Shown here one piece after another: positions 1,866 to 5,124 of a stretch of DNA of 64,000 nt. The translations under genes were made by a program, and so were the position numbers. The stretch comes from Flavonifractor sp. An92 (GTDB taxonomy: Bacteria > Bacillota > Clostridia > Oscillospirales > Oscillospiraceae). Under the pieces are notes generated by a model. The model had not been told where the DNA came from, did no database searches, and saw nothing but the letters and a program-made list of their open reading frames with translations. The first letter of the stretch is position 1; every line of letters begins with the position of its first letter. The stretch covers positions 1 to 64,000 of the forward strand of contig NZ_NFGZ01000008.1 of assembly GCF_002159175.1 (NCBI RefSeq), given 5' to 3'.

Positions 1866-1884
1866 GTATCCATTTGTAACTAGC

Positions 1885-1933
1885 TTTTCATTTGCGACAA
1901 GTGTAGCATATAATTGAACTACGACAAATGACG
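1885..1933 (+). promoter_or_regulatory. promoter with candidate BlaI-type operators
   Basis: TTTTCA (1885-1890), 18 bp, TATAAT (1909-1914). Two similar sites straddle it: CGACAAGTGTAG (1895-1906, in the spacer) and CGACAAATGACG (1922-1933, after the start point); a related TTACAAATGG lies upstream on the other strand near 1871-1880. BlaI/MecI operators are built on an ACA-N2-TGT dyad, which the first site has. Autorepression of the following operon is inferred. Confidence 0.5.
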
Positions 1934-1951
1934 CAAATTGGAGGGATGACC

Positions 1952-2338
1952 ATGAAGCTGCGCAGACTGCCCGACGCGGAGCTGGAGGTGATGCAGGCCC
2001 TGTGGTCGGCCAGCGAGCCGGTGCCCCGCTCCTGGCTGGAAGAACGCTTCTCGGGACACAACTGGACGGCCAGCACGGTGAACACCTACCTCTCCCGTCT
2101 GGGAGAAAAGGGATTTCTCACCGTGGAGCGCCGGGGCAAGACCAACTACTACACGCCTGTGGTGTCCCTGGCGGAGTATCAGGCCTTTGAGAGCCGGAGC
2201 GTGCTGCACAAGCTCTTCGGCAGCTCGGTGAAAACCTTTCTCGCCGCCCTGGCCGGCCCCGACGGCCTGAGCGACGAGGAGGCCCGAGAACTCCAGGCCT
2301 ATCTGGACGAACAGAAGAAAGGAGGCAATGACCCATGA
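1952..2338 (+). CDS. BlaI/MecI/CopY family transcriptional repressor
   Basis: 128-residue winged-helix repressor. The N-terminal LRRLPDAELEVMQALW and the TASTVNTYLSRLGEKGFL recognition helix plus wing (VERRGKTNYYTP) are typical of BlaI; the C-terminal third would dimerise. Family members block a promoter until a partner BlaR1/M56 membrane protease is triggered, usually by cell-wall stress or beta-lactam, and the repressor is cleaved. The start at 1952 has GGAGGG 7 nt upstream; in-frame ATGs at 1928 and 1946 have poorer spacing. Its stop overlaps the next start (ATGA), so translation is coupled to the sensor genes downstream. Confidence 0.88.
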   Translation: MKLRRLPDAELEVMQALWSASEPVPRSWLEERFSGHNWTASTVNTYLSRLGEKGFLTVERRGKTNYYTPVVSLAEYQAFESRSVLHKLFGSSVKTFLAALAGPDGLSDEEARELQAYLDEQKKGGNDP

Positions 2339-4242
2339 AAGCCCCCCGCACCTGGTTCTCCACCTCCCTGCGGGGAGACGCAAGGTCCCTGCGCCGCCGC
2401 TTCGCGGTGCTCTTCCACCCGGGCGTGCGGAGAGGGCGGGTGCTGCTGCTCCTACTGGCGCTGGTGGTGGCGCTGAGCGGCGGACTGGTGGCCTGCCAGA
2501 CCGCCACGCAGACGGAGCGCCTCTGCCGGGAGCGATTTGAGGCCGCCCTGGCCGTCACACGCCACTTGGTCAGCGGGGACCACCCCGACCACACCGGCGA
2601 CACCTTCCAGGATGCAGACGGCCAGACCTGGTACCACTGCACCCACTACGCCTCGCAGGAAGAACTCTGGAATGCCCTGGGCGAAGTCTTTACCGACGGC
2701 TATTTGCAGGCCTTCTCCAACCTGGAGGGTTGCTTTCAGGACCGGGAGAACGGCCTCTGGTGCGCGGTACTCTCCCTCTACGATGTCTCCCCCTGGCTGA
2801 GTGAGGACACCGCCGACCTGGACACCCTCCAGGTCCTGTCCCAGGAGGGGGACCGCATCGTCTTTACCATGGACTGCAGCGCCACGGCGGGCCAGCCGGT
2901 GCCCAACTATTTTGCCCTGGAACAGTCCGACGGCGTGTGGCACTTCTCGGCGTGCTTCTCGGCGGAAGATGTCCGGGGCGTTTTGTCGGAGGAGACGGTC
3001 CTCGCCGCCTTCCGCACCGGCGAGGGCGAGGAGGCCCAGGAGCTCACGGACACCGTGGCGGAGCGCCTTCCACTGGACGGCCAGACGCTGGCCGTGGTCC
3101 GCTCGGAGGGCCCCCACGTCCACGGCCTGGGCGCACTGGAGGTGGGAACGGTGGACAACACCACCGGCACCCTGACCGCGCCGCTCTTCTATGTAGGCGC
3201 GGATGAGTTTCAGTACCAGCTCCGCTCCGGCGACGGCTGGGCGGAGGTCCGCTACACCGCCTGGCAGATGTACCAGGGTATCCTCTATCCCCAAGCGGGG
3301 GTGCTGCTGTGGGACGGCAGCGTGTGGCAGCGCATCTGGCCCGACGTGGGGAACGAGTGGTACCTCTCCTACTGGGAGGGGCGCACCGCTGAGCTGGGCG
3401 ACGACGGCTTCTCCCTCTACGCCACCGACGAAAACGGCTCTTCCACCGGGGAACTGCTGACCACTGTTTCCAATGAAGAGCTGGCCCTTCTGCGGGAGGG
3501 CGCGCTGTACAGCCGGGACCTGCAGGTCTCCCCCGCCGTCCGCGCCGCCATCCAGGACGCTTTGGCCTCCGGTCCCATCCGCCTGACCGCCATTACCCCG
3601 ACGGGGACCTTCTCCGGCCTGGAAGTCTATCAGGTGGTCTGGGAAATGTACGCCAATGACGCCTGGCAATCCATGTCCAGCGCCGACACCCCCTGGTATG
3701 CCTTTTTTGACGGGCAGGAGACCCTGCTGGACGTCCGCACCTCCGCGCCCGAGGCGCTGGAGGAGACCGCCCTGGCAGTCCGCTGGGGGCTTACAGACCC
3801 AGAATACGCCTTGACCGATGAAACGCAGTCGACCTGGTACGGCCTGACCGGACCGGCGGAGCTGGATGAACTTCTGGGCGGTGCCCCCACGGTGGAGGCG
3901 CTGCCCTATGAGGCGGACCAGCCCGGCAGCCATTGGGAGCGCCGGAGCTGGGAGGGTCTCTCTCTGGAATGTCTGGTACACGCCGACGGCACCTCCTGGC
4001 TCTACCGCCTGGAGACCACCCGGCCCGACCTCTTCACCCGCCGGGGTGCCCATGTGGGCATGTCCCGGGAGGAGGTCCTGGCCCTCTACCCCGCCGCCTC
4101 CAGCGGCTCCCCCTGGGATTGGGACGAAACGGCCGGCAAGAACCTCTGGGTGGGCCCCGACACCATCCCCGGCTTCTATCTGGGCTTCCAGATGGAGAAC
4201 GGCCGGGTGGCTGCCATCCGGCTCCTCAACTTCTACGACTGA
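2335..4242 (+). CDS. membrane-anchored extracellular protein resembling the C-terminal half of a BlaR1/M56 sensor
   Basis: 635 residues. A basic stretch (SLRRRFAVLFHPGVRRGR, about 18-35) leads into one membrane segment (36-54) ending in LVACQ, then a long acidic region of repeated Trp/Tyr-containing units that would lie outside the cell. In M56 proteins this basic-linker-plus-final-helix layout normally follows the peptidase domain, yet here the peptidase is the next gene. The end of that downstream protein (residues 274-287) and the start of this one read like a broken junction. LVAC could also be a lipobox, although the segment is far from the N-terminus. No catalytic motif or named domain was recognised in the outer part; ligand sensing is inferred from context. 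Coupled to the repressor gene by an ATGA overlap. Confidence 0.72.
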   Translation: MKAPRTWFSTSLRGDARSLRRRFAVLFHPGVRRGRVLLLLLALVVALSGGLVACQTATQTERLCRERFEAALAVTRHLVSGDHPDHTGDTFQDADGQTWYHCTHYASQEELWNALGEVFTDGYLQAFSNLEGCFQDRENGLWCAVLSLYDVSPWLSEDTADLDTLQVLSQEGDRIVFTMDCSATAGQPVPNYFALEQSDGVWHFSACFSAEDVRGVLSEETVLAAFRTGEGEEAQELTDTVAERLPLDGQTLAVVRSEGPHVHGLGALEVGTVDNTTGTLTAPLFYVGADEFQYQLRSGDGWAEVRYTAWQMYQGILYPQAGVLLWDGSVWQRIWPDVGNEWYLSYWEGRTAELGDDGFSLYATDENGSSTGELLTTVSNEELALLREGALYSRDLQVSPAVRAAIQDALASGPIRLTAITPTGTFSGLEVYQVVWEMYANDAWQSMSSADTPWYAFFDGQETLLDVRTSAPEALEETALAVRWGLTDPEYALTDETQSTWYGLTGPAELDELLGGAPTVEALPYEADQPGSHWERRSWEGLSLECLVHADGTSWLYRLETTRPDLFTRRGAHVGMSREEVLALYPAASSGSPWDWDETAGKNLWVGPDTIPGFYLGFQMENGRVAAIRLLNFYD

Positions 4243-4260
4243 GGGAGGGATTTTCGCTTC

Positions 4261-5124
4261 ATGTTTGATCTCCCCACTCTGTTGGAGGTGAGCCTCTCCA
4301 CCGCGCCGGTGATCCTGCTACTGCTCCTGCTGGGCCCGCTGCTGGAAAAGCGGTACGTCCCACGCTGGCGCTACTGGGCCTGGCTAGTGGTGGCAGTGCG
4401 GCTGCTGCTCCCTGTGAACTTCTCCCTGCCGGAGCCTCTGGTGGAGCTGACGCCTCCGGAGTTCACCACCACCCCGGTCGTGACCCCCGGCACCGCGCCC
4501 ACTCCTTCCACCGCGGCCCTGAGCCCCCCTGTCCCATCCTCGCCCCGTCCGGTCCTCACGCCCCGGCCGAATCCGGTCCCGCCTGTGGCTCCGAATGTTG
4601 ACGAATCTGCTCCGCTCCTCTCCCTCTCCCAGATCCTGCCCTGGGTGTGGATGGCGGGTGCGCTGGGAGTGGTCCTCTGGAATCTGGTGGGCTGGCTGCG
4701 CTTCCGCCGGTGGATCAAACGCTGGGCCGTCCCGGAGCCATCCCTGGAGGCCGCCGCCCGGGCAGCGGAGCTGTCCCCGCTCACGGTGCGGCTCCTCCGC
4801 TGTCCGGGGCTGTCAGGCCCCATGATGACGGGGCTCTTCCGGCCCACGGTGCTCCTCCCCGACCCGCCGCCGGAGGGAGAGGTCCTCTCCTTCGTCCTTC
4901 TCCACGAGCTCACCCACTTCCGCCGCCGGGACATCTGGTACAAAACCCTCCTGCTCCTGGCGGCAGCGGTCCACTGGTTCAATCCCCTGGTGTGGTTGAT
5001 GCTCCGCGCGGCGGAGGGCGACCTGGAGCGCGCCTGCGACGCCGACGTGCTCCGCGCCCTGCCGCCGGAGGCCCGGGATCCCTACGCCTCCGCCATCCTG
5101 GCCGCCGCCCGCCGGGGCAGCTAA
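4261..5124 (+). CDS. M56 family membrane metallopeptidase (BlaR1-like), peptidase half only
   Basis: 287 residues. Membrane helices at about 12-27 and 37-52, a Pro/Thr-rich outer loop (60-112), a third helix at 124-146, and a cytoplasmic gluzincin core with HELTH at 215-219 (zinc ligands and general base) followed by a hydrophobic helix (227-248) and the family's ERACDADVL. BlaR1-type proteases cleave BlaI-type repressors when a signal is sensed outside. The protein stops at AAARRGS, where family members normally continue through a linker and last helix into a sensor domain; that part appears to be supplied by the gene before it. GGGAGGGA precedes the ATG by 11 nt. A terminator follows the stop within 10 bp. 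Confidence 0.88.
   Translation: MFDLPTLLEVSLSTAPVILLLLLLGPLLEKRYVPRWRYWAWLVVAVRLLLPVNFSLPEPLVELTPPEFTTTPVVTPGTAPTPSTAALSPPVPSSPRPVLTPRPNPVPPVAPNVDESAPLLSLSQILPWVWMAGALGVVLWNLVGWLRFRRWIKRWAVPEPSLEAAARAAELSPLTVRLLRCPGLSGPMMTGLFRPTVLLPDPPPEGEVLSFVLLHELTHFRRRDIWYKTLLLLAAAVHWFNPLVWLMLRAAEGDLERACDADVLRALPPEARDPYASAILAAARRGS

Follow-up and report, generated by a model that had tools for sequence, protein, structure and literature searches.

A BlaR1-type receptor protease apparently divided between two genes in an operon of Flavonifractor sp. An92

Layout of the repressor, sensor and protease genes

We analysed a three-gene operon in a 64,000-nucleotide (nt) stretch of DNA from Flavonifractor sp. An92 (contig NZ_NFGZ01000008.1, positions 1 to 64,000; the whole stretch is called the window here) that appears to encode a BlaI-type repressor together with a BlaR1-type receptor protease whose sensor is a separate polypeptide. 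All features described lie on the forward strand. The genes follow one another in the order repressor, sensor, protease, as had been proposed in an earlier note made from the sequence, and this order was confirmed by the open frames, all three of which are intact, and by Pfam matches. The repressor gene (1952..2338; 128 amino acids, aa) matched PF03965 with an expectation value (E) of 2.6e-25, and the last gene (4261..5124; 287 aa) matched PF05569 (E 5.8e-43) and encodes an M56 protease subunit that lacks the linker, the last helix and the sensor. Between them lies the gene of a free-standing sensor subunit composed of linker, helix and ectodomain (2335..4242; 635 aa), which was recognised from its open frame, a linker profile and a predicted model. 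The proper starts and ribosome sites described in the same note can be read directly in the sequence (GGAGGG at 1940-1945, AGGAGG at 2320-2325 and GGGAGGG at 4243-4249), as can the coupling of the sensor gene to the repressor gene, which it overlaps as ATGA.

The sensor carries near its N-terminus the residues FSTSL (residues 8-12, 2356..2370), the counterpart of the P4-P1' autocleavage site of BlaR1 (LSHS followed by F284), and then Arg22 (2398..2400), the counterpart of BlaR1 Arg294 on helix alpha9. In a low-confidence model (mean predicted local distance difference test score, pLDDT, 69.6) a basic helix spans about residues 16-26 and a membrane helix about residues 34-54; the latter (2434..2496, placed by model and alignment) ends in a lipobox, LVAC, with Cys54. 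The linker and helix had been assigned to residues 18-54, of which the end near residue 54 stands, while the linker starts at about residues 6-8. The C-terminal ectodomain (3577..4239) is common to other free sensors and to a lipoprotein-like gene at a related locus, L103. No known fold was found for the outer domain among the 50 structure matches listed, all of which had template-modelling (TM) scores of 0.13 or less on the query, and a tektin-type Pfam match of the sensor lay below its cut-off and was dropped as an identification.

In the protease, three long N-terminal helices, which we took to be membrane helices, precede the HELTH zinc motif (His215, Glu216 and His219; 4903..4917), Asp260 (5038..5040), the counterpart of BlaR1 Asp246, which is the partner of Arg294, and Tyr275 (5083..5085), the counterpart of BlaR1 Tyr261. 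The protease model had a mean pLDDT of 82.4, and its six top structure matches were BlaR1 entries (E 1.3e-5, TM 0.59, root-mean-square deviation 11.2).

Relation of the two chains to fused receptors and BlaR1

The expectation that the two products would lie end to end in fused homologues was checked with a profile of 15 fused relatives, which aligned with Staphylococcus aureus BlaR1 through the linker (E 2.4e-24). With Tyr275 aligned to BlaR1 Tyr261, the 287-aa protease ends 12 residues further on, at about BlaR1 position 273, and Met1 of the sensor falls at about the same position in the fused-profile register, just before the autocleavage site, so that both the fused relatives and BlaR1 place the meeting point of the two chains there; the claim that the protease stops where the linker should begin was thereby borne out. 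In the same register FSTSL corresponds to BlaR1 Leu280-Phe284 and Arg22 to Arg294. A study of BlaR1 (PMC9834060) places the loop at residues 271-289 and the cut between Ser283 and Phe284, and describes Arg294, on the swapped helix alpha9, as pairing with Asp246. Because alpha9 enters the active site of the partner chain in the published BlaR1 dimer, the break falls at an existing interchain contact.

A profile of 15 fused linkers matched residues 6-51 of the window sensor (E 2.9e-7) and 48 of 51 curated free sensors (the misses were L105 sensor 1, L115 sensor 2 and L116), as against 0 of 1020 shuffles. Among 1220 predicted proteins, in sets that include some contigs twice, the same profile gave 89 matches at E 0.01, comprising 41 M56 proteins and 48 free sensors, and no free linker was found remote from a short M56 gene in these proteins. 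In the reverse test, run at E 0.05, a free-sensor profile matched 30 of 48 fused M56 proteins, with matches that open 0-20 residues past the peptidase domain, and left the other 18 unmatched. Chance resemblance of the sensor N-terminus to a linker was ruled out by the profile and shuffle controls.

The residues expected of a BlaR1/MecR1 protease are conserved on both chains. Counterparts of BlaR1 H201, E202, H205, D210, E242, D246 and Y261 were kept in all 15 aligned split proteases, and the counterpart of Arg22 was invariant in the N-termini of 25 aligned free sensors and in 15 of 15 fused relatives. Every one of the 51 curated sensors has the cleavage-site motif, under a pattern that tolerates several residues at P4-P1', and then an arginine at the tenth residue past P1', the spacing of BlaR1 F284/R294. 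In the window system HExxH, ExxxD and the supporting zinc-protease residues are accompanied by an autocleavage motif and an Arg294 counterpart that match in sequence and lie on the sensor subunit; in place of the single chain of BlaR1/MecR1 there are two, divided at about BlaR1 position 273. The conservation of residues on both chains, together with the BlaR1-like model of the protease, suggests that the sensor probably completes the protease active site in trans.

The free sensors also share features of predicted lipoproteins. Cys54 of the lipobox was invariant in all 25 aligned free sensors, and all 51 curated free sensors fit the lipobox pattern, as did 54 of 55 in a rescan, where the miss was a doubtful frame in L108. 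Both sensors of L232, a locus of another family, were without it. Among 47 fused receptors, 20 likewise have a lipobox-like motif where the last membrane helix ends, for example at L027, L113 and L194.

Distribution, gene order and regulation of split operons

Using a custom gene caller and open-frame scans on a set of relatives of which many are metagenome bins, we found split M56 genes with adjoining free sensors at 28 loci in 25 genomes; the carriers among named isolates include Pseudoflavonifractor phocaeensis An569, Pseudoflavonifractor sp. An44, Flavonifractor sp. An82 and Colidextribacter sp. OB.20. Among the matches listed there were at least 29 complete short M56 genes, counted after exclusion of L190, which is cut by a contig end. 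Free sensors adjoin 27 of these at E 1e-3. L232 is a weaker case, its two sensors scoring E about 5e-4 in a small search but 4e-3 to 5e-3 when the database size was fixed, and none was found beside L242. In a search of 394 genomes of the order, with five candidates at most scored per genome, the best 12 matches listed were short proteins of the window's family. Thirteen places with short frames (L233-L235 and L240-L249) were inspected, the complete gene of L242 among them. The frames of L233, L234, L235, L240, L241, L244 and L248 continue into a tail or linker, and these were rejected as short M56 genes; L243 and L245 (contig ends), L246 and L247 (incomplete domains) and L249 (a repeat of L232) were not counted.

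In a tree of 108 M56 domains, from which L114 and L230 had been dropped by a coverage filter, 24 splits formed one clade (99/96) that adjoins six fused receptors (group support 89/72). L231 and L232, which are two operons of one genome (G285) from another family, each with two free sensors, fell elsewhere, on branches that were long or weakly placed. The tree requires three changes, either as separate gains or as gains plus losses, and the family represented by these two operons apparently underwent fission at the autocleavage loop on its own.

The usual order in the clade is repressor, protease and then one or more sensors, up to six. The sensor precedes the protease in only 3 of the 28 loci, namely the window, L102 and L103, the proteases of which group together (98/88). 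L102 and L103 also carry downstream sensors, and the window is the sole one of the 28 without a sensor after the protease. Because an upstream gene, which we take to be metA, is common to the window, L100, L107 and L109, the order probably changed in place; gain of an upstream sensor would have been followed by loss of the downstream one in the window lineage. Circular permutation or a single swap of halves is contradicted by the order in relatives and by the tree. The earlier note had read the locus as a working rearrangement rather than decay, and the genes are indeed intact with no sign of decay; a unique swap of halves is not supported, since the fission is common to a 24-member clade. In related operons dN/dS (the ratio of nonsynonymous to synonymous substitution rates) was 0.14-0.33 for eight sensor pairs and 0.14-0.25 for three protease pairs. 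The window's own genome has a second split operon, L098:6525-9941 (G000:C23), in the order repressor, protease, sensor. A search of this genome for orphan sensors gave five matches below E 1e-3, three of them fused receptors and the other two the known free sensors, and weak matches at 0.12 and 0.36.

Several sensors may stand behind one protease, with six in a row at L127:5674-14115 and five at L131:9875-15537 and beyond; in these rows the linkers are closely alike, and the outer domains on average little more so than shuffled sequences. Sensor frames with a first start a long way upstream escape the automatic count (L126, L127 and L148 truly have 4, 6 and 3 sensors), which also includes the one doubtful frame in L108. 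Identity of the linker and helix averaged 74.9% within operons (49 pairs) and 46.3% between operons (1226 pairs). Ectodomain identity was 24.8% within operons and 25.9% between them, as compared with 22.9% when one side of the within-operon pairs was shuffled. Ectodomain types recur in fused receptors (L126 sensor 3 and L193 share 42% over 156 aa, E 2e-36), and the L103 homologue of the window's C-terminal domain (37% over 183 aa) is borne on an ordinary lipoprotein-like signal. At L103:7405-9557 a linker-helix gene of 397 aa stands with a separate lipoprotein-like gene of 320 aa that is homologous to this C-terminal domain, and a window-type sensor may have been further divided there. In the 26 proteins scanned, no penicillin-binding, class-D-like Pfam domain was found at E 0.01, and the sole Pfam matches were TKTI1, Pico_P2A and FG-GAP_3, in one protein each.

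Upstream of the window operon we located a promoter-like site, TTTTCA-18-TATAAT (1885..1914; 10/12 matches, one found against a shuffle mean of 0.4). It is overlapped by probable repressor operator 1 (1894..1907), which occupies the place of ACTTCAANTGTAGT in related operons, and is followed by probable operator 2 (1921..1934), identified by comparison of the operator pattern across those operons. The family operator overlaps the -10 region, and the window copy has diverged yet is in place. A TGTAAC box (1875..1880) lies 19 nt before operator 1. The operator pattern and the TGTAAC box each preceded the repressor in 20 of 22 operons; both were matched upstream in 16, and in 15 of these, the window included, the box stands 19 nt ahead of operator 1, as against 16 nt in L127. 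The repressor phenylalanine near the C-terminal cut was kept in 22 of 22 split operons, as judged by eye, as was its match to the BlaI cut Asn101-Phe102; the window repressor retains it, with KTFLAALA where relatives have RNFVAALA. In 13 genomes, all nine perfect matches to the family operator precede a split operon, and imperfect matches were about as frequent as those of a backward control. Within the genome of the window itself, this operator matched the C23 operon only (2 matches, one of them perfect; control 2), which brings the perfect matches to ten (9 + 1), every one before a split operon, and the window's operator variant was its own sole match at up to one mismatch (backward control pattern, 4 matches).

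The TGTAAC box corresponds to the downstream half of a WalR-like box (1864-1880); in the window the other half is degraded, and the box as a whole has two mismatches. According to PMC9210968 the WalR consensus is TGTWAH-N5-TGTWAH, and a Clostridioides difficile BlaI-BlaR-like operon belongs to the WalR regulon. This pattern stood before the promoter in 12 of 22 operons exactly and in 17 of 22 at up to one mismatch (base shuffles, 0.01 and 0.46), which may point to cell-wall state as a theme. A search of the window's genome for the box was near chance (2 matches, backward control 1). One such box, at L238 about 1501-1517 (G000:C8:4607), lies just before a small gene and a wall hydrolase gene, presumably of SH3-NlpC/P60-like type, and a similar pair of small gene and hydrolase adjoins the split operons of Flavonifractor relatives.

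Proposed mechanism, alternatives and known systems

We consider it likely that the operon encodes a BlaR1-type receptor protease which an ancestral fission divided where the autocleavage loop begins, with the sensor docking in trans. The 287-aa chain would contribute three N-terminal helices and the zinc protease. The remainder would come from the 635-aa chain: the cleavage-site loop, the active-site arginine on alpha9, the final membrane helix and the outer domain. Docking on the protease would take place through the sensor's linker and helix, the sensor's N-terminal tail would block the protease cleft, and Arg22 would meet Asp260; a signal at the outer domain would then shift the tail out, so that the protease could cut the repressor and derepress the operon. 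As the earlier note proposed, the two products would have to meet in the membrane. With somewhat less assurance, we favour the idea that one M56 protease serves as the common output of exchangeable receptors, each providing an inhibitory peptide and an arginine in trans.

Some observations weigh against docking of this kind. Because nearly all free sensors close the membrane helix with a lipobox, the outer domain might be severed from its helix by signal peptidase II, which would weaken the coupling, and the likeness of linkers within operons could reflect recent duplication instead of fit to the protease. No regulated genes besides the operon itself were found in the operator searches, and the window's operators deviate from the family consensus, as its WalR-like box does. 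A short M56 can also stand without a sensor: L242:8176-9333 (G125:C26) encodes a complete 385-aa M56 with no linker, and there is no free sensor within the 17 kb examined, which makes it a possible sensorless member.

The chief competitor, to which we give a real though clearly smaller chance, is that the sensor is a lipoprotein: signal peptidase II would cut before Cys54, leaving a 53-residue linker-helix as a small regulator of the protease, and the lipid-anchored outer domain would be the operon's product, for instance as a wall-binding protein or decoy, its dose set by BlaI control. The consistency of the lipobox across the free sensors, the L103 homologue on a lipoprotein-like signal, and the restriction of perfect operators to split operons, which leaves the sensors as the sole known regulated products besides repressor and protease, all accord with this, and in the published model (PMC9834060) BlaR1 likewise loses its sensor to a signal peptidase. 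However, the cytoplasmic part of about 33 residues exceeds what a signal peptide needs and is conserved together with substrate site and arginine; moreover, many fused receptors end their last helix in a lipobox-like motif, and the L232 sensors have no lipobox at all. That the protease acts alone, its neighbours being ordinary surface proteins, seems improbable. Stand-alone M56 proteins, such as actinobacterial Rv1845c, are known and L242 could be another, whereas the sensor N-terminus is homologous to fused linkers, its arginine and cleavage site are conserved, and all but one of the 29 complete short M56 loci have free sensors beside them, though L232 only by weak matches. Decay or misassembly of a broken BlaR1 gene with misplaced halves is hardly credible, given that frames, starts, the promoter-like site and the catalytic residues are all intact, that relatives show purifying selection, and that split operons occur a second time in the same genome and in named isolates; an assembly swap in particular is unlikely, since the loci of two other genomes, L102 and L103, likewise open with repressor and sensor.

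On the reading of a split receptor that docks in trans, the window's gene order represents one arrangement within a modular receptor system and not a broken gene. The protease would be competent only with a docked receptor, and new senses would be added by adding receptor genes. How the outer sensor of BlaR1 is coupled to its inner protease, and what autocleavage contributes, are still debated; here a whole clade keeps a chain cut at the autocleavage loop, so that loop, arginine helix and sensor are separable from the protease and can be added, omitted or exchanged as individual proteins. The loci suggest a receptor array feeding one protease and a possible modular biosensor, and the open-licence literature searched yielded no account of M56 receptors made separately from their sensors or of such arrays.

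The system resembles BlaR1/MecR1 (MEROPS M56) with BlaI/MecI in its zinc-protease residues, its BlaI-type repressor with a phenylalanine near the C-terminal cut, its cleavage-loop motif, arginine helix, last membrane helix and outer domain, and the operator-like sites before the operon. It differs in consisting of two polypeptides, with several sensors per protease in relatives, and in having a lipobox, no penicillin-binding Pfam match and no beta-lactamase gene in the operon. The C. difficile BlaI-BlaR-like operon shares a link to WalR, which here consists of sequence matches, but is not described as split in the available part of PMC9210968. The fused Oscillospiraceae M56 receptors of the six-row sister group have the same linker motif, in some cases a lipobox-like end, and overlapping ectodomain types, but are single chains with one sensor each. 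The sensorless actinobacterial M56 proteins, exemplified by Rv1845c, likewise place a short M56 beside BlaI, whereas nearly every short M56 gene described here adjoins a free sensor with linker and helix.

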